Shown here piece after piece: positions 8,804 through 46,446 of a stretch of DNA of 64,000 nucleotides (the first letter of the stretch is position 1; each line of letters opens with the position of its first letter). The stretch lies in contig NZ_CP109031.1 of the NCBI RefSeq assembly GCF_036226925.1, positions 3,782,001 to 3,846,000 on the forward strand, written 5' to 3'. The DNA comes from Streptomyces sp. NBC_00659 (GTDB lineage: Bacteria > Actinomycetota > Actinomycetes > Streptomycetales > Streptomycetaceae). The notes beneath the pieces were generated by a model. The model was given only the letters and a program-made list of their open reading frames with translations, did no database searches and had not been told where the DNA came from. Position numbers and translations under genes: made by a program.

Positions 8804-9685
8804 ATGGCGGAAATCATCCAGCGGGACGGCACGTGGATCTTCGACGGCGACACTCTGCGGCTGACGCCGGGGCGGGACAAGAACGTCAGCCTGCTGCGCC
8901 GGACCCTGGGTGAACTCACCGTGCCGCTCGGCGCGTTGGCGGGTGTCTCGCTGGAGCAGGGAAAGAAGGCCGGGCGGCTCAGGCTCCGGCTGCGCGACGG
9001 CGCCGACCCGCTGCTCCAGGCGACCGGCGGCAAGCTCGCGGAGCCGAACGACCCGTATCAGCTCACGGTGGAGGCCGACCGTCTCGGGGTCGCCGAGTAC
9101 CTCGTGGACGAGGTGCGGGGCGCGCTGCTCCTCGACCAGGTCCCGGCCGGTCCGGTCGACGGCTATCTGGTGCCCGGCCCGGCGGTGCCGCTGTCCGCGT
9201 CCGCGGGTGACGGTACGGCGAGCTTCGACGGCGAGCGCGTACGCCTGGAGTGGAACTGGAAGACGGAGGAGGCGAAGTCCGCGGCGGGTGCCCGGACGCT
9301 CGCGCTCGTGGACATAACGGCCGTCGAGTGGCGGCCCGCGGCCGGGCTGGAGAACGGCTGTCTGCGCTTCACCGTCCGCGGCGCCGACACCAAGGCGCCG
9401 CCGAAGTACGACCCCAACTCCGTGGAGCTGTGGGGCTTCAAGCGGGACCCGCTGATGGCACTGGTGGCGGCCGCCGTGCAGGCGAGGCTGCCGCACCCGG
9501 CGGCGGCGGTGGAGGACCGTCCCGTCGAGGAGCCGGACGGGGCCCCGGCCCTGGGACCGGGACCCGAGGCCGACCACGACGCCCTCCTGCGCAGGCTGCG
9601 CGAACTGGGCGAGCTGCACAAGGAGGGCGTCCTGACGGACGAGGAGTTCGCCCTGGCCAAGCAGGCGGTCCTCAAGCGCCTCTAG
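8804..9685 (+). CDS. DUF4429/SHOCT domain protein
   Basis: This 293-residue cytoplasmic-looking protein has no signal peptide or membrane segment. It seems to hold two copies of a DUF4429-like beta domain (about residues 10-110 and 130-230; compare TWIFDGDTLRL with GTASFDGERVRLEW). An acidic linker follows, then a C-terminal SHOCT motif (LRELGELHKEGVLTDEEF), a short oligomerisation or binding module found at the ends of many Actinobacterial proteins. Its function is unknown. It is divergent from the hexosaminidase gene and starts 32 bases after the second DasR-type site, so it may share that control. Confidence 0.8.
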   Translation: MAEIIQRDGTWIFDGDTLRLTPGRDKNVSLLRRTLGELTVPLGALAGVSLEQGKKAGRLRLRLRDGADPLLQATGGKLAEPNDPYQLTVEADRLGVAEYLVDEVRGALLLDQVPAGPVDGYLVPGPAVPLSASAGDGTASFDGERVRLEWNWKTEEAKSAAGARTLALVDITAVEWRPAAGLENGCLRFTVRGADTKAPPKYDPNSVELWGFKRDPLMALVAAAVQARLPHPAAAVEDRPVEEPDGAPALGPGPEADHDALLRRLRELGELHKEGVLTDEEFALAKQAVLKRL

Positions 9686-9737
9686 AAACAGGCGGGCGAC
9701 GACCGCCGCGCGGGGGCCGGCCGCCGGTCAGGGAGGC

Positions 9738-9763
9738 GGTACGCCCCGCCTTCCGGGCGTACC
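9738..9763. terminator. Hairpin terminator after the DUF4429 gene
   Basis: A nine-base inverted repeat (GGTACGCCC at 9738-9746, GGGCGTACC at 9755-9763) lies in the 128-base gap between two convergent genes. It can serve either of them. Confidence 0.6.
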
Positions 9764-9813
9764 TGGTTCCTGGGGGCCGACGGTACCCGGAGCGCCCGGG
9801 CAGGGGCCCGGGG

Positions 9814-39780: not shown

Positions 39781-40782
39781 ATGCCGCAGACCGATGCACC
39801 GCGTACCGAAGCGGCACCGCGCGCCCGGCCGGGCCGGTGGGACGCCCTGCGCGCGTCCGCCGCGTCGCAGGCCCGTCTGCGCTGGTGGACCGAGGTCCCG
39901 CTGATCCTGCTCGTGTACGCGGCGTACACCGCTGGCCGGCTGCTCGCCCGGGGCAACACCTCCGGCGCGATAGACCACGGCCTGGAGATCCTGCGTATCG
40001 AGAAGGCCCTCCACCTCAACGCCGAACATCCGCTGAACCGGCTGTTCACGCGGGAGGCCTGGCTCGGTGTGCCCGCCGACTTCGGGTACGCGTCGCTGCA
40101 CTACGTGGTGACGCCGGCGATCCTGATATGGCTCTTCCGCTCCCGGTCCGTGCGCTACCGCGCGGCCCGCACCTGGCTGTGGACCTCCACGTTCATCGGT
40201 CTGATCGGCTTCACCCTGCTGCCGACCTGCCCGCCCCGGCTGCTGTCGCCCGAGCACGGCTTCGTCGACACGATGGCCCAGTACAGCGATTACGGCTGGT
40301 GGGGCGGCGAGGCGAGTGCGCCACGCGGCATGGGCGGGATGACGAACCAGTACGCGGCGATGCCGAGCCTGCACGTCGGCTGGGCGCTGTGGTGCGGGGT
40401 GATGCTGTGGCGTCACGGCCGTACTCCCGCCGCCAAGGTCGCCGCCGTCGTCTATCCGCTGTTCACCACGATCGTCGTGATGGGCACGGCCAACCACTAC
40501 TTCCTGGACGCCGTCGCGGGCGTCGCCGTGATGGGGGCCGGCCTGCTGCTGACCCCGTTCGTGATGCGGGCGGCGGACCGTGTGCGGACGCTGCTGAACG
40601 TCGTCGTCCCGTGGGGCAAGGGTGCCTCGGGGGGCGAGGGTTCCGCGATTGTCAGTGCGGGGTGCCAGACTTCCCCGGGTGAACGAATTCCCCGACAGCG
40701 CGAGCCCCGTCCCGGGCCGGGAGCCGAGCCGGATTCCGCCGCCACGGACGCGGGAGACAGCGCTGCGACAGCAGCTCGCTGA
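39781..40782 (+). CDS. PAP2-superfamily membrane phosphatase/phosphotransferase
   Basis: This 333-residue protein has five or six membrane helices and the PAP2 catalytic motifs in the arrangement used by inositolphosphorylceramide-synthase-like enzymes: MPSLHVGWALWCG (near residue 195) and TANHYFLDAVAGV (near 238). The active site faces outside, and the substrates are probably lipid phosphates. The ATG at 39781 has GGGGGAGGG upstream. The last 50 residues are low complexity and lie in a 104-base overlap with the next gene, so the functional protein may effectively end near residue 285. Confidence 0.88.
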   Translation: MPQTDAPRTEAAPRARPGRWDALRASAASQARLRWWTEVPLILLVYAAYTAGRLLARGNTSGAIDHGLEILRIEKALHLNAEHPLNRLFTREAWLGVPADFGYASLHYVVTPAILIWLFRSRSVRYRAARTWLWTSTFIGLIGFTLLPTCPPRLLSPEHGFVDTMAQYSDYGWWGGEASAPRGMGGMTNQYAAMPSLHVGWALWCGVMLWRHGRTPAAKVAAVVYPLFTTIVVMGTANHYFLDAVAGVAVMGAGLLLTPFVMRAADRVRTLLNVVVPWGKGASGGEGSAIVSAGCQTSPGERIPRQREPRPGPGAEPDSAATDAGDSAATAAR

Positions 40783-42115
40783 GCTGCGCGGTCCGGACAT
40801 CGCGCCGAAGGCTCTGGACGCGCGGGCCCTCGCGGCGCTCGCCGCCAACCCCGGGTGCGACCGGCGCGCCCTGCTGGACGGTGTGGGCGTCGACAAGGCG
40901 AAGCTGGCCGGTGCGCTCGGCGCGCCGTCCGCGTTCGGGATGTCGCAGTTCGCCTTCATGCGGGGCAACGCGTTCGAGGCGCGGGTCAAGGCCGACGGCG
41001 GCGCCGAGCTGCTGCGGCTGGTGCACGAGAAGCTGGACCCCGGGGCCGCGCCGCCCGGCGCCGGTGCCGTGCCCGACCTGAGCGCGATCGGCCCCGAGGG
41101 ACGCACGGAACGCACGGCACGGGCGTTGCGCGAGGCCACCGGGACCGGCGCCTGGACCCTGCTCGACCACCCCATGCTCGCCCTGGACGTGGCGGGCTCC
41201 CCCGCCTTCCTGGAGCCGGACGCCGTGGTCGTGCATCCCGACGGGGACTGGACGGTCGTCGAGATCAAGTCGTTCCCGATGCTCGACGGCTCGGCCGACC
41301 CCGCCAAGGTGGGCGCCGCCGCCCGGCAGTCCGCGGTGTACGTCCTGGCCCTGGAGGAGGTCGCGGCCGGTCTCGAGCCCGCTCCCGAGGTCCACCACCG
41401 TGTCCTGCTGGTCTGCCCGAAGGACTTCTCCAACCTCCCGGCCGCCTCGGCCGTCGACGTGCGCAAGCAGCGCGCGGTCACCCGCCGCCAGCTCGCCCGG
41501 CTCACCCGGGTCGAGGACATCGCGGCCGCCCTCCCCGAGGGCACCTGCTTCTCCCCCGGCCTTCCCGCCGAGGAACTGATCACGGCCGTCGAGGCGGTCC
41601 CCGCCACCTACGCCCCCGAGTGCCTGTCCGCCTGCGAGCTGGCCTTCCACTGCCGGGCCCGCTCGCGCGCGGAGGGCGCGGTGACCTCGCTCGGCCGCTC
41701 GCTGCGCGCGGAGCTCGGCGCTCTGACGACCGTCCCGGACGTCCTGGCCGCGGCGCGCGGGAAGGCGGGCGACCCCGAGGACCCCGCCGTCGCGGCCCTC
41801 AGGAGAGCGGCGCTGCTGCGGGCGGAGGCCCTGCGCGGGACGGCCGCGCAGACCCCTGCCCGAGCCCGGGAGGCCCGGGTACCGGTCGCGGTGGCGGCGC
41901 GGGCCGGCTTGCCGCAAGACCTCGCGGCAGGCCGGAGGGGCTCGGCCGGCGGCCTCCCCGAGGTACACACCGTGCCCGCACCAGGATCCCCGGCCCCGGA
42001 GACCGGCGCGCCCAGGGCCGAAGCACACGAAACGCCCGTGCCCACCGGTGCGGGCGCCCCCGAAGCCGCCGCCCCCGGCGACGTCGGCGGCCGGGAGGCG
42101 GGCGCATGTCTCTGA
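40679..42115 (+). CDS. PD-(D/E)XK nuclease with cysteine cluster, RecB/Cas4/Dna2-like
   Basis: This 478-residue protein contains a classic PD-(D/E)XK nuclease core: Pro-Asp181 in LEPDAVVV and Glu195-x-Lys197 in DWTVVEIKSF. A cysteine cluster follows at C315, C319 and C325 (CLSACELAFHC), with further cysteines at C290 and upstream of the core at C60. This resembles the split 4Fe-4S ligand set of Dna2, Cas4 and AddB, though here the first spacing is Cx3C instead of CxxC. The last 100 residues are disordered. It is the first of three overlapping genes with the putative helicase at 43698. The GTG start at 40679 is the first plausible one and is not certain. Confidence 0.8.
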   Translation: MNEFPDSASPVPGREPSRIPPPRTRETALRQQLAELRGPDIAPKALDARALAALAANPGCDRRALLDGVGVDKAKLAGALGAPSAFGMSQFAFMRGNAFEARVKADGGAELLRLVHEKLDPGAAPPGAGAVPDLSAIGPEGRTERTARALREATGTGAWTLLDHPMLALDVAGSPAFLEPDAVVVHPDGDWTVVEIKSFPMLDGSADPAKVGAAARQSAVYVLALEEVAAGLEPAPEVHHRVLLVCPKDFSNLPAASAVDVRKQRAVTRRQLARLTRVEDIAAALPEGTCFSPGLPAEELITAVEAVPATYAPECLSACELAFHCRARSRAEGAVTSLGRSLRAELGALTTVPDVLAAARGKAGDPEDPAVAALRRAALLRAEALRGTAAQTPARAREARVPVAVAARAGLPQDLAAGRRGSAGGLPEVHTVPAPGSPAPETGAPRAEAHETPVPTGAGAPEAAAPGDVGGREAGACL

Positions 42116-43701
42116 TCACCGCCCTCGCCCGGCTGGAGGCCGTCGAGAGCGGCCGGGCGCAGCCCGCCGCCACCGTCCTCCACCGCCATCTCGTCGAACG
42201 GCCGCTGGTGTTCGTGCCGCTCACCACCGCGGGCGAGGCGGGAGCCCCGCTCGGGGCGCTCGTCGGCACGGACCGGGACGCGCCCCGGCTGCTCGTCGTG
42301 CCGCAGCCGCGCGACCGCGACCTGCGTTTCGCCTTCCTCGCCGAACTCGCGGACGTCGTCCTGCCCTACATCGACTCGTTCGCGGATGTCGTCGAGGCGG
42401 CCGAGCGCAGCGAGACCGACCCGGAGACCGGCAAGCGCGTCAAGGTCGAGGTCGAGCTGTCCGCGGACGCTCCGCAGCTGATCGTGCCGGGCCGGGCCGG
42501 CATCGAGTTCATCCGCCTCCTCGGGCGCTCCACCCGCTTTCGCCGCACCGCCGAGCAGGATCCCGAGACTCCGCATCCTGCGCCTCCCCGGGTGCCGCTG
42601 TTCGGGCGCTGGCTGACCCACTTCGGGGAGCGCGCCCGGGTGCCCGGCTCCGCCCTGCTCCTCGCCCTCACCGACGTGCTGTCCCGGCACTGGGCCACCG
42701 GTCAGAGCAGCCTGGAGGACCAGCATCTGGGCGCGCTGCTCGCCTGGCTCGATCCTCCGGACGGCGAGCCGGGCGCCGAGGCGGCGGTACGGGCCGAGCT
42801 CCAGCGGGACGCGCGCGGTCAGCTCGTCTGCCCGCCCGCCGGACCGGCCACCGACCCCGCCTTCGACAACGAGCTGCTGGCCCCCGCGATCGAACGCTAC
42901 GACCGTGCGCGTACGGCGCTGGCCGCCGCCGAGGACGGCATCGAGGCGGACGACCGGCTCGGTGAACTCACCGCGGCCGAGCGGAGGATCCGCGACCTGG
43001 TCGAGAGCGTCACCCGGCCCACCTGGGACGCGGTCTGGCACGGTCTCGACCTGCTGCGGGCGCTGCCGGAAGGAGCGCACTCCGCCGACCGGTGGACCCG
43101 TGACCGCTGGTCGTTCACCGGACACCGCGACCGGGTGGTGGCGGGCGAGCCGCCGCAGCCGCGCCGCGACGACGCGGTCACCGCCGCGAACAAGCTGGCC
43201 ACCCGGGAGCGGGAGCAGGCCCGGCTGGAGGCGCAGGAGGCTCTCGACGACCCGCTGGTCATGGCCGGCCGGCGGCTCGCCGGAGAGGCGTTCGCCGGAG
43301 AGGTCACCGAGGTCGTGACGGCGTACAGCGAAGGCAAGCGGCCGAGCCCCCGCCCGCTGGTGACCGTCCGCACGGACGACCGCCCGCACCTGGGGGAACG
43401 GGCCAAGGTGTACCGCTCGCTCGGCGGGAAGCCGCAGGCCGCGGAGTTCGTGGGGTACGACGACGAGGGTGCGGCCGTGGTGCTGCGGATCGTCGACAAG
43501 ATGGGGCGCGGCAAGGAACCGGAGGCCGGGTCCGTGCCGGAGAACGGGGATGCCGTCTGCTTCACGCTCTTCGAGCACGAGCAGCGCGGCGGTGCCAAGC
43601 TGCCCGACCCGGAGGAGACGCCGTGGACGCACGGAGGGCCGCCGGGCGAGCCCGACGCGCTGCCGCTGCCGGACCCGGTGACCGAGGAGGACGTGCTGTG
43701 A
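42106..43701 (+). CDS. Uncharacterised 531-residue protein between nuclease and helicase genes
   Basis: I do not recognise a named domain. The N-terminal 200 residues are alpha/beta with ADAPQLIVPGRAGIEFIRLL. The middle is helical and highly charged. A predicted coiled segment near residue 360 (KLATREREQARLEAQEALDD) precedes a beta-rich C-terminal region (VTVRTDDRPHLGERAKVY, AAVVLRIVDKMG, DAVCFTLFEHEQR). A helical stalk next to a small beta-barrel is what SF1B helicases of the Dna2/UPF1 group carry before or within their core, and the helicase next door lacks it. The ATG at 42106 has GGGAGG upstream, and it overlaps both neighbours. Confidence 0.75.
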   Translation: MSLITALARLEAVESGRAQPAATVLHRHLVERPLVFVPLTTAGEAGAPLGALVGTDRDAPRLLVVPQPRDRDLRFAFLAELADVVLPYIDSFADVVEAAERSETDPETGKRVKVEVELSADAPQLIVPGRAGIEFIRLLGRSTRFRRTAEQDPETPHPAPPRVPLFGRWLTHFGERARVPGSALLLALTDVLSRHWATGQSSLEDQHLGALLAWLDPPDGEPGAEAAVRAELQRDARGQLVCPPAGPATDPAFDNELLAPAIERYDRARTALAAAEDGIEADDRLGELTAAERRIRDLVESVTRPTWDAVWHGLDLLRALPEGAHSADRWTRDRWSFTGHRDRVVAGEPPQPRRDDAVTAANKLATREREQARLEAQEALDDPLVMAGRRLAGEAFAGEVTEVVTAYSEGKRPSPRPLVTVRTDDRPHLGERAKVYRSLGGKPQAAEFVGYDDEGAAVVLRIVDKMGRGKEPEAGSVPENGDAVCFTLFEHEQRGGAKLPDPEETPWTHGGPPGEPDALPLPDPVTEEDVL

Positions 43702-45032
43702 CCGCCGTGTTCGACCCGGGTGCCGAGGCCACCCGCGCCACCGACGCGATCCTGCGCGACACCCTGCACGGCACCGACCGCGGAGTCGTGGTCGACTCCC
43801 CGCCGGGCGCCGGCAAGTCGACCCTCGTCGTCCGGGCCGCTCTCGAACTGGCGGCCGCCGGGCGCCCGTTGATGGTCATCGCGCAGACGAACGCCCAGGT
43901 CGACGATCTGGTGCTGCGGCTCGCGGAGAAGGCGCCGGACCTGCCCGTGGGCCGGCTGCACAGCAGCGACTCCGACCCGTACGACAAGGCGCTCGACGGC
44001 CTGGACCAGGTCCGCAAGTCCGCGAAGGCGGCAGACCTGGCCGGCCTGGACGTCGTCGTCTCGACCGCCGCGAAGTGGGCCCACGTCAAGGGCGTCGAGC
44101 CCTGGCGGCACGCCATCGTCGACGAGGCGTACCAGATGCGCTCGGACGCGCTGCTCGCGGTCGCCGGGCTCTTCGAGCGGGCGCTGTTCGTGGGCGACCC
44201 GGGGCAGTTGGACCCGTTCGCGATCGTCGGCTCGGAGCAGTGGGCGGGACTGTCCTACGACCCGTCCGCGTCCGCGGTGTCCACGCTGCTCGCGCACAAT
44301 CCGCAGTTGCCGCAGCACCGGCTGCCGGTGTCCTGGCGGCTGCCCGCGTCGGCCGCGCCCCTGGTGTCGGGCGCCTTCTACCCGTACACGCCGTTCCGCA
44401 GCGGCACCGGTCACGGCGACCGGCGGCTGAACTTCGCCGTCCCGTCGGACGGTTCGGGCACCGACCAGGTCATCGACGAGGCGGCCGAGTCCGGTTGGGG
44501 GCTGCTGGAACTGCCGGCCCGGCACACTCCGCGCACGGACCCGGAGGCGGTCCACGCGGTGGCCGGGGTCGTACGGCGGCTGCTCGACCGGGGCGGCGCG
44601 GCCACGTCGGAGCGGGCGGAGGATCCGGTGCCCCTGACGGCCGACCGGATCGCCGTCGGCACGGCGCACCGCGACCAGGCCGCGGCCGTACGGGCGGCGC
44701 TGACCGGTCTCGGCGTCACGGACGTCACCGTGGACACGGCGAACCGGCTCCAGGGACGGGAGTTCGACGTCACCGTCGTCCTGCACCCGCTGTCGGGACG
44801 GCCCGACGCCACGGCCTTCCATCTGGAGACCGGACGTCTGTGCGTACTCGCTTCCCGGCACCGGCACGCGTGCATCGTGATCTGCCGGGAAGGAATCACG
44901 GAGTTGCTGGACGACCACCCGTCGACCGAGCCCGTACAGCTGGGGGTGACCGTGAAGTTTCCGGATGGCTGGGAGGCCAATCATTCGGTGCTGTCGCATC
45001 TGGCGGAACACCGGGTGACCTGGCGGCCCTGA
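43698..45032 (+). CDS. SF1 (UPF1/Dna2-like) helicase core protein
   Basis: This 444-residue protein is a nearly bare SF1 helicase core. Walker A is SPPGAGKST (Lys40), motif II is VDEAYQM (Asp142, Glu143) and motif III is VGDPGQLDPF. The second RecA-like domain carries TANRLQGREFDVTVV (motif V) and ASRHRHACIV (motif VI Arg). The motif set fits the AAA_11/AAA_12 (UPF1/Dna2) pattern better than UvrD. It would move along single-stranded DNA or RNA with ATP. Its GTG start overlaps the preceding stop (GTGA), so it is translated with the two upstream genes. Confidence 0.88.
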   Translation: MTAVFDPGAEATRATDAILRDTLHGTDRGVVVDSPPGAGKSTLVVRAALELAAAGRPLMVIAQTNAQVDDLVLRLAEKAPDLPVGRLHSSDSDPYDKALDGLDQVRKSAKAADLAGLDVVVSTAAKWAHVKGVEPWRHAIVDEAYQMRSDALLAVAGLFERALFVGDPGQLDPFAIVGSEQWAGLSYDPSASAVSTLLAHNPQLPQHRLPVSWRLPASAAPLVSGAFYPYTPFRSGTGHGDRRLNFAVPSDGSGTDQVIDEAAESGWGLLELPARHTPRTDPEAVHAVAGVVRRLLDRGGAATSERAEDPVPLTADRIAVGTAHRDQAAAVRAALTGLGVTDVTVDTANRLQGREFDVTVVLHPLSGRPDATAFHLETGRLCVLASRHRHACIVICREGITELLDDHPSTEPVQLGVTVKFPDGWEANHSVLSHLAEHRVTWRP

Positions 45033-45187: not shown

Positions 45188-45565
45188 ATGGCGGAGCCCA
45201 CGCCGCGTCGGAACGAACCGCGGCTACGCCCCGCGCCCCTGCTCTTCGAGCCCGCGGAAGCCGCCGGGGATCCGGAGCATTTCTTCGACCTGGAGTCGAT
45301 CGACGATCCGCGCGCGCTCCTTGACCGGTCCACGGAGCTGGCGCACGCGTTTCGCGCCGCCGCCGACCGGGCCGTCGAGTTCCAGGCCATCGCCGCCGCT
45401 CAGCTCGCCGATCCGCGCCGTTTCGACCGGCTGACCACCGCCTCGATCGCCGAGCGGGCCGAATGGACCGAGGACTACGCGAAGAAGATGGTCGAGTTCG
45501 GCCAGGACCTGCTGCGGGGCACGGAGGGCAACGGACACGGTCACGGAGTGACCGACCCACTCTGA
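45188..45565 (+). CDS. Small conserved helical protein after the nuclease-helicase module
   Basis: This 125-residue cytoplasmic protein of unknown function has a Pro/Arg-rich start and then two long helices (DDPRALLDRSTELAHAFRAA, SIAERAEWTEDYAKKMVEFG). It ends in a Gly/His tail (GNGHGHGV). The ATG at 45188 has a strong GAGGAGGAGA upstream. A 155-base gap separates it from the helicase gene, so it may have its own promoter. Confidence 0.78.
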   Translation: MAEPTPRRNEPRLRPAPLLFEPAEAAGDPEHFFDLESIDDPRALLDRSTELAHAFRAAADRAVEFQAIAAAQLADPRRFDRLTTASIAERAEWTEDYAKKMVEFGQDLLRGTEGNGHGHGVTDPL

Positions 45566-45777: not shown

Positions 45778-46446
45778 ATGAGCAGCACACGGAACCCGCC
45801 GAGCAGCAGCCCGCACAGCCCCGGAGCGAGGTCGTCCGAAGGGCTGGACGTCTCCGGTGTCACGGCCGAGGGCGCCGCCTGGCTCGCCTCCGCCGGAACG
45901 TATCCGCGCAGCACGCTCGCTCTGTGGCGCGAACGGCCCGACGCCCCGGTCGTCCTGCTCTGCGGCAGCGCGTTCGACGTCGTCAGCGCCTCGGCCCTGT
46001 TCGGGCGGCGGATGCTCGACCGGCTCTGGGACGAGGGGCCGGGCTCGGGCCCGGTGGCGGCGTACCGCGGACGGATCCTGCTGTTCGCCGCGCCCGGCAC
46101 CGCCCAGCGGCTCCCCTCGCTCATGGAGTGGGAGGAGTGGGGCGGGAGGCCGGGCGTCGGGGCGGGGCGGTGCCGGGAGGTTCCTCCGCTGCTCTGCCAC
46201 GGCACGGGAGACGCGGTCACCGTGCCCCCGCTGACCCCCGGGAGCGACGGACCGGGGGCCGTCCGGACCGATTCCCGCTGGCTGGTCGCCCCCGACACGC
46301 AGCGGCCCTGGCTTCCCGGCCCCGAGATCCTGCTCTGGGCGGCCGTGCGGGCGGCCCGCGCGGCGGCGTCGGCTGCGGTACGGATATCGATTTTTCCTCG
46401 TGCCGATCAGGATGCTAAGGTCTACGACGTCAGCAGGCGCCGCTAG
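45778..46446 (+). CDS. Primase-polymerase N-terminal-like protein
   Basis: This 222-residue cytoplasmic protein belongs to a Streptomyces family commonly labelled bifunctional DNA primase/polymerase N-terminal domain. Characteristic segments are GAAWLASAGTYPRSTLALW, LFGRRMLDRLWDEGPGSGPV and CHGTGDAVTVPPL. No primase catalytic Asp/His set is obvious, so the activity is unproven. The stop codon at 46444-46446 lies inside the tRNA-Lys gene, so the last three codons and the stop overlap the tRNA 5' end. An ATG at 45778 is used; the frame is open further upstream without a ribosome-binding site. Confidence 0.72.
   Translation: MSSTRNPPSSSPHSPGARSSEGLDVSGVTAEGAAWLASAGTYPRSTLALWRERPDAPVVLLCGSAFDVVSASALFGRRMLDRLWDEGPGSGPVAAYRGRILLFAAPGTAQRLPSLMEWEEWGGRPGVGAGRCREVPPLLCHGTGDAVTVPPLTPGSDGPGAVRTDSRWLVAPDTQRPWLPGPEILLWAAVRAARAAASAAVRISIFPRADQDAKVYDVSRRR

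Follow-up and report, generated by a model that had tools for sequence, protein, structure and literature searches.

A three-gene nuclease-helicase unit of Streptomyces as a probable machine for degrading DNA ends

Introduction

Three overlapping genes in Streptomyces sp. NBC_00659 raise the question of whether a nuclease-helicase of the Dna2 type can be divided over three proteins, and what such a machine would do in the cell. They lie in the 64,000-nucleotide stretch analysed here (contig NZ_CP109031.1, positions 3,782,001 to 3,846,000; called the window below), which belongs to a genome of 9.66 Mb assembled as a single contig. An earlier note on this DNA read them as a split Dna2-like enzyme and favoured a role in repair, given their place in core sequence beside housekeeping genes. 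The unit occupies window positions 40679-45032, and its features are, with lengths in amino acids (aa) and base pairs (bp):

Gene 1, 40679..42115, + strand, 478 aa, predicted PD-(D/E)XK nuclease of the RecB/Cas4/AddB/Dna2 class
Gene 2, 42106..43701, + strand, 531 aa, protein without a Pfam or NCBIfam model
Gene 3, 43698..45032, + strand, 444 aa, predicted superfamily 1 (SF1) helicase core of the UPF1/Dna2 type
Overlap of genes 1 and 2, 42106..42115, + strand, 10 bp, the same in 66 of 75 Streptomyces loci
Overlap of genes 2 and 3, 43698..43701, + strand, 4 bp, the same in 64 of 78 Streptomyces loci

Since this trio is co-inherited across distant relatives and also occurs in defence islands and on plasmids, it is probably one undescribed DNA-degrading machine. 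We consider it rather probable that the three products together degrade invading or aberrant DNA ends and that one copy has become fixed in the Streptomyces core genome.

Results and Discussion

The three genes are inherited together

The overlaps of 10 and 4 bases described in the earlier note were confirmed and proved to be conserved within Streptomyces. For the counts, 80 gene-2 loci were fetched from named genomes, all Streptomyces except one labelled only Actinobacteria; 75 and 78 of them had a measurable gene pair. The trio is a real, conserved gene arrangement.

Among 197 genomes of the class, genes 1, 2 and 3 were found in the identical 29, belonging to 7 of the 90 genera (gene 3 counted at E 1e-180 or better). 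Because all three genes occur in the same 29 genomes, their co-occurrence goes beyond chance. Thirteen of these genomes lie outside Streptomyces, in families f4, f17, f18 and f37, and the distribution is patchy in the first three. Larger regions were available for 12 of the 13 and showed the trio adjacent and in order in 10, while gene 3 sits 36 and 49 kb from the gene 1/gene 2 pair in G095 and G196; in the thirteenth genome, G152, the trio is split over contigs. Thirty additional genomes of the class gave weaker gene-3 matches. The strongest of these (1.9e-13) comes from a broken remnant in G107 (L158, near 9000-9800), a genome in which genes 1 and 2 were undetected. Another fragment, a partial N-terminal copy of gene 3, lies at G196:C4:1351995-1352255.

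Within Streptomyces, 199 genomes were sampled for genes 2 and 3. At E 1e-20, 187 of them had gene 2 and 188 had gene 3, with the two in agreement in 196; the 3 discordant genomes are assemblies of at least 630 contigs. Neither gene was found in 10 of the 199, including 4 whose assemblies have no more than 140 contigs, so the trio seems dispensable. Homologues of seven flanking genes occur in 62-74 of the 66-75 Streptomyces loci of sufficient length, and their strand is almost always conserved (PAP2 in 74/74, histidine phosphatase in 71/73, a TPR gene in 72/72; a homologue counted wherever it lay in the locus). The main Streptomyces copy is therefore vertically inherited. A phylum-wide search with gene 2 matched 13 of 296 genomes; one of these matches, in G198 (E 7.7e-4), falls in a frame interrupted by stops and was attributed to chance. 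Overall, the survey supports the view that the trio is one unit, co-inherited and arranged in the domain order of Dna2.

A nuclease with conserved cysteines and a bare helicase core

Its intact catalytic and cysteine motifs show gene 1 to be a predicted PD-(D/E)XK nuclease of the Cas4/AddB/Dna2 class. Asp181, Glu195 and Lys197 stand where the earlier note had placed them, and the catalytic residues show no variation across the 75 aligned Streptomyces rows. Among 22 aligned sequences from two classes, the RecB-family motif Q217xxxY221 is kept in all 22, and the complete set of D181, E195-I-K197 and this motif in 21; the exception, L126, has LIR instead of EIK. One cysteine precedes the core and three follow it with the spacing C-x3-C-x5-C. 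Cas4, AddB and Dna2 have x2/x5. C315, C319 and C325 are kept in 22/22 of the aligned sequences and C60 in 21/22, the remaining one (L117) having a start that was called too late. These four residues would be expected to hold the predicted iron-sulfur (Fe-S) cluster. C290, which the earlier note had listed with them, did not hold up: it is found in 74/75 close Streptomyces rows but in only 2/17 rows of the wider alignment. The C-terminal tail is poorly conserved from about residue 390.

In the AlphaFold2 model of gene 1 the core reaches a predicted local distance difference test (pLDDT) score of about 90 and has PD-(D/E)XK topology, with structural matches to Cas4, EXO5, RecB, AddAB, Dna2 and MGME1. 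Searches of Pfam, NCBIfam, PADLOC (PADLOC-DB 2.0.0, as throughout) and PHROGs gave no match; a scan over all gene-1 members reached E 0.059 at best, for PDDEXK_1 in 5 of 17. Against PDB sequences the gene-1 profile hit only two designed repeat proteins, which were set aside as composition artefacts, and sequence-level homology to the Dna2 nuclease was undetected. Profile comparisons with the TM0106 nuclease, the UvrD-Cas4-like C-terminus and PprPDDEXK were not significant (E 0.13-0.22; reversed controls 0.34-0.67); the one with TM0106 was a weak test, its alignment being contaminated by non-nuclease stretches of truncated loci.

Gene 3 matches Pfam AAA_11 and AAA_12, both above their cut-offs, and carries a Walker A motif with K40, a DE pair at 142-143 and GDPGQ at 166-170. 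K40 and Asp142-Glu143 are conserved, in agreement with the earlier reading. The closest relatives among PDB sequences are DNA2 and SMUBP-2. There is one match to a PHROG of unknown function, and PADLOC gave partial matches only, mostly to longer proteins. UPF1, IGHMBP2 and Dna2 carry a barrel N-terminal to the motor. Only about 30 residues lie ahead of Walker A in gene 3; because the Walker A lysine is residue 40, there is no N-terminal room, and the protein lacks a 1B barrel and stalk of its own. These motifs show gene 3 to be a predicted bare SF1 helicase core of the UPF1/Dna2 type.

Gene 2, a protein without a known family

That gene 2 is unrecognised was borne out by Pfam, NCBIfam, PADLOC and PHROGs, none of which assigned it a family, and a scan over all members stayed at chance level. 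Its model shows an N-terminal alpha/beta part, a helical middle and a C-terminal region of one long helix and about six strands; the first two are the more confident parts. This possible C-terminal barrel matches the 1B domains of SETX, UPF1 and Sen1 along with barrels of other kinds. A Foldseek search returned no trustworthy match among the families that such lists cover. In a profile comparison with the region ahead of the helicase in fused TM0106 relatives, the parts of gene 2 other than its C-terminus gave E 0.11-0.72, which is not significant. It is only suggested by the model, therefore, that gene 2 might provide the stalk and 1B-type barrel that the helicase is without.

The trio in another class of Actinobacteria

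The class of G427 was searched with a gene-3 profile (247 genomes, E 1e-10). Twelve genomes matched, four of them at 338-580 bits; the eight others scored 42-50 bits inside frames of 1127-1218 aa, which we took for fusions of the TM0106 type. The order nuclease, gene 2, helicase is found in all four strong genomes (G427, G590, G664 and G618), and in the first three the trio is intact with two 4-bp overlaps. Gene 2 is homologous between Streptomyces and this class (hhalign 98.2%, E 2.8e-14), and the catalytic and cysteine motifs of the nuclease are retained in both. Gene 2 is the most diverged of the three, at 16-22% identity to the G427 protein as against 33% for the helicase. Moreover, the trio of G427 and G590 is followed by a fourth overlapping gene, a TIGR03491 (TM0106) nuclease above cut-off (L157 5059-6753; L175 4345-6201), which suggests a four-protein version with two nucleases in these genomes.

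Additional trio copies within defence islands and plasmids

Further copies of the trio have DNA-acting neighbours. The second trio of G123 lies between Hma genes (HmaA and HmaC matches) and PprPDDEXK, PprRE and PprDinG, which are partners of pPIWI-RE; this context is recognised here by its partner genes. In G101 the second trio is flanked on one side by SbcCD-like genes (SbcD above its cut-off, SbcC below) and on the other by a helicase similar to type I/IIG restriction enzymes. In G664 (L176) and G618 (L177) the trio adjoins a UvrD/PcrA-like gene and type III Mod and Res. The C-terminus of the UvrD/PcrA-like protein is weakly Cas4-like, scoring under the curated cut-off, and the protein comes in two pieces in G618; on the other side of the G664 trio are a TrwC relaxase and a coupling protein. 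Two Streptomyces plasmids (L180 1-16142; L181) carry a gene here called gene 0, then nuclease, gene 2 and helicase, followed by Wadjet genes (DUF3375, DUF4194, an SMC-like ATPase and JetD by annotation), and SbcCD lies upstream of the trio in L180. With SbcCD and Wadjet as its neighbours on plasmids, the trio may have roles in mobile-element competition.

Gene 0 precedes the trio at four non-Streptomyces loci, at both second copies and on both plasmids. As called, it encodes 190-291 aa; its N-terminus is coiled-coil-like, the box LRRDEERSxxxxxxxRPYYxC is conserved, and the two proteins scanned had no Pfam or PADLOC match. A search of 12 genomes detected it in 2; the window's own genome (G000), G018 and G089 were among those without it.

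Gene 0, upstream of the trio: L115 7377-8174; L121 11796-12563; L126 11926-12801; L127 7182-8039; L180 4437-5282

Gene 2 and the helicase behind MoxR and vWA genes

Gene 3 matched 48 plasmid records, three of them closely; the remaining matches among those listed have about 31-33% identity and come mostly from Rhodococcus and Mycobacterium. Six plasmid loci (Rhodococcus, Mycobacterium, Mycolicibacterium and Xylanimonas) share a vWA gene, a small gene, a gene of about 390 aa and then the helicase, and a MoxR/AAA ATPase gene lies ahead of vWA in 5 of the 6, as far as the incomplete plasmid gene table goes.

MoxR/AAA, vWA, small protein, gene-2 relative and helicase operon: L182 3041-8143; L183; L184; L189; L191

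The protein of about 390 aa and gene 2 are homologous (hhalign 96.4%, E 1.3e-9, over columns 1-288 of the 388 of the former), as judged from seven plasmid sequences and the wider gene-2 profile; A2 alone gave 93.3% and E 2.6e-7. With three plasmid sequences the comparison with gene 2 had reached E 0.0048, and that with the gene 2 of the other class alone E 0.32. No gene-1 relative (E 0.01) was found in nine plasmid stretches of this type, 8-15 kb long. Since the gene-2 relative and the helicase occur together with no gene 1 found nearby, gene 2 belongs with the helicase, whose nuclease partner seems to be replaceable. Frequent separation of the three genes would have spoken against a single unit, and it is seen in part: on these plasmids two of them occur without a detectable nearby nuclease gene.

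This repeated operon on large actinobacterial plasmids resembles an independent system for conflict or plasmid maintenance. Arthrobacter-type plasmids (L186, L188) have a different layout, and in Euzebya (L187) a cytosine methyltransferase gene takes the place of MoxR-vWA.

Proposed function and alternative explanations

As we picture it, the helicase, by family an SF1B enzyme of 5'-3' direction, would run along single-stranded DNA. Gene 2 would dock onto it, probably via a C-terminal stalk and barrel, and bridge it to the nuclease, which would cut the threaded strand as Dna2 does within one chain. Gene 2 and the helicase may thus form a constant motor, to which exchangeable modules are attached: the nuclease, sometimes with the upstream gene 0, or MoxR and vWA. 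The likely role would be the degradation of invading or aberrant DNA ends, directed against plasmids or phages. The copies in islands and on plasmids, the patchy distribution and the joint absence of genes 2 and 3 favour action on foreign DNA, and an anti-mobile-element role is more likely than housekeeping repair. A broader proposal can be made tentatively, and we would put it somewhat below an even chance: an undescribed, modular actinobacterial defence family built on a split UPF1/Dna2-type motor, in which gene 2 lends stalk and 1B barrel in trans and which is plugged into either an Fe-S Cas4-like nuclease or the plasmid MoxR-vWA pair, the Streptomyces copy acting as core immunity.

Several observations weigh against these proposals. 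The gene 2 model has a mean pLDDT of only 58.9, with about 40-55 in the barrel; the matches of this barrel to 1B domains are tied with the barrels of ribosomal L3 and FNR, and the gene-2 C-terminus compared with the TM0106 pre-helicase region gave a non-significant E 0.026-0.13. The stalk and barrel assignment of the earlier note is hence only suggested, by a low-confidence model. For gene 1, no Foldseek match reached E 0.001, and of the expected nuclease fold with four clustered cysteines, the fold and the conservation of the cysteines were found, but the C315-C325 stretch is modelled below pLDDT 50. Not all copies are intact. The gene 3 of G056 looks frameshifted, the island nuclease L126 (10717-11835) has lost its ExK motif while keeping the four cysteines, and gene 2 of G618 (L177 1304-6913) has two in-frame stops; because of these stops and the divided UvrD-like neighbour, the G618 island looks partly decayed, or its assembly is faulty. 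No trio relative turned up in the phage or viral contig collections searched. Finally, the conserved synteny and core status of the main Streptomyces copy suit repair too.

Gene 2 could instead be mainly a sensor or target-recognition subunit that recruits helicase and nuclease effectors and donates no barrel or stalk. Its large size, its more confidently modelled N-terminal and middle parts, its strong divergence between the classes and its persistence with the helicase where no nearby nuclease gene was found would fit such a role. We regard it as doubtful all the same, as the C-terminus immediately precedes the helicase gene and looks like a helix and barrel, and the helicase is without a barrel of its own. 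The sensor and barrel/stalk readings can both hold.

A housekeeping machine for DNA-end processing or repair in Streptomyces and some other actinobacteria, functionally analogous to Dna2 or AddAB, with island copies as secondary recruitments like the UvrD-Cas4 fusions, would explain why the trio is core in the genus, why homologues of the seven flanking genes are kept around it and why the catalytic residues of the nuclease are invariant there. It is unlikely as a full account in view of the 10 genomes with neither gene 2 nor gene 3, the patchy occurrence in other families, the second copies carried by defence islands and plasmids, and the island copy without its ExK motif. The core location claimed in the earlier note thus stands, whereas the conclusion in favour of repair is weakened by the extra copies and the absences; for the core Streptomyces copy, repair may still be the role. 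An RNA-directed machine, in which a UPF1-type motor and an RNase act on transcripts, is very improbable: the Dna2 paper terms the UPF1 subfamily RNA/DNA helicases (PMC4716839), but the nuclease resembles the DNA exonucleases Cas4, EXO5, MGME1, AddAB and Dna2, and the neighbours of the extra copies (SbcCD, Wadjet and restriction-modification genes) act on DNA.

If the degradation of foreign DNA ends by this trio is correct, Streptomyces, the main antibiotic producers, would have a nuclease-helicase machine in their core genome, two of whose three proteins are without a family name. Motor, barrel and nuclease could be tested singly, unlike in single-chain Dna2, and the swap of nuclease and MoxR-vWA around one motor would be an added building block of bacterial defence.

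Comparison with known systems

Eukaryotic Dna2 is a close parallel, since its domain order equals the gene order here (Fe-S-type nuclease, gene 2, helicase). The Dna2 paper describes a barrel on a two-helix stalk between nuclease and helicase, a resemblance to the UPF1 subfamily, and an Fe-S cluster that AddB has in common with Dna2 (PMC4716839). In contrast, Dna2 is one chain, whereas the window and the trio loci whose coordinates were read have separate open reading frames; the C-x3-C-x5-C spacing of gene 1 and the large extra N-terminal part of gene 2 differ as well. TM0106-family (TIGR03491) proteins also link a Cys-bearing RecB-like nuclease to a UPF1-type helicase, and plasmid proteins annotated as TM0106 match the gene-3 helicase query. 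Unlike the trio, they are fused in one chain where joined, and they have an RNase H-like domain. Neither window genes 1-3 nor the gene 1 of G427 matched TIGR03491 above cut-off, and the window's own genome has no TIGR03491 protein above cut-off.

AddAB, AdnAB and RecBCD likewise pair a helicase with a RecB-family nuclease for DNA ends, and gene 1 has fold matches among them. They differ in having the nuclease and a UvrD-type motor in one chain, without gene 2. UvrD-Cas4 fusions share the Cas4-like nuclease, the SF1 helicase and the defence context with the trio, but their helicase is UvrD-type and fused, without gene 2. UvrD-Cas4 with type III restriction-modification is a published defence context, and such fusions occur in other contexts too (PMC5704561). 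On Rhodococcus and Mycobacterium plasmids, the gene-2 relative and the helicase follow MoxR and vWA genes, and these operons are candidate members of the published MoxR-vWA conflict systems (PMC7159879); unlike at the trio loci, no Fe-S nuclease gene was found beside them. No description of the trio was found in searches of the open-access PMC literature or in PMC5704561, PMC4716839, PMC12839542 and PMC10693628; subscription papers mostly fall outside this body of text.

Neighbouring genes

Two genes downstream of the trio were considered as members of the unit and dropped, both lying past a 155-bp gap. Homologues of these two genes, of PAP2 and of the histidine phosphatase were absent (E 1e-5) from 20 trio loci other than the main Streptomyces copy (other families, extra copies, plasmids and the other actinobacterial class). 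The gap and this absence place the neighbours outside the unit. The first (window 45188-45565) encodes 125 aa without a Pfam or NCBIfam match and is kept in 73 of 75 Streptomyces loci at a mean identity of 86.6%. The second (window 45778-46446) has a bifunctional primase/polymerase N-terminal match just above cut-off (PF09250; SCO3374-like) and is present at 68 of 70 Streptomyces trio loci.

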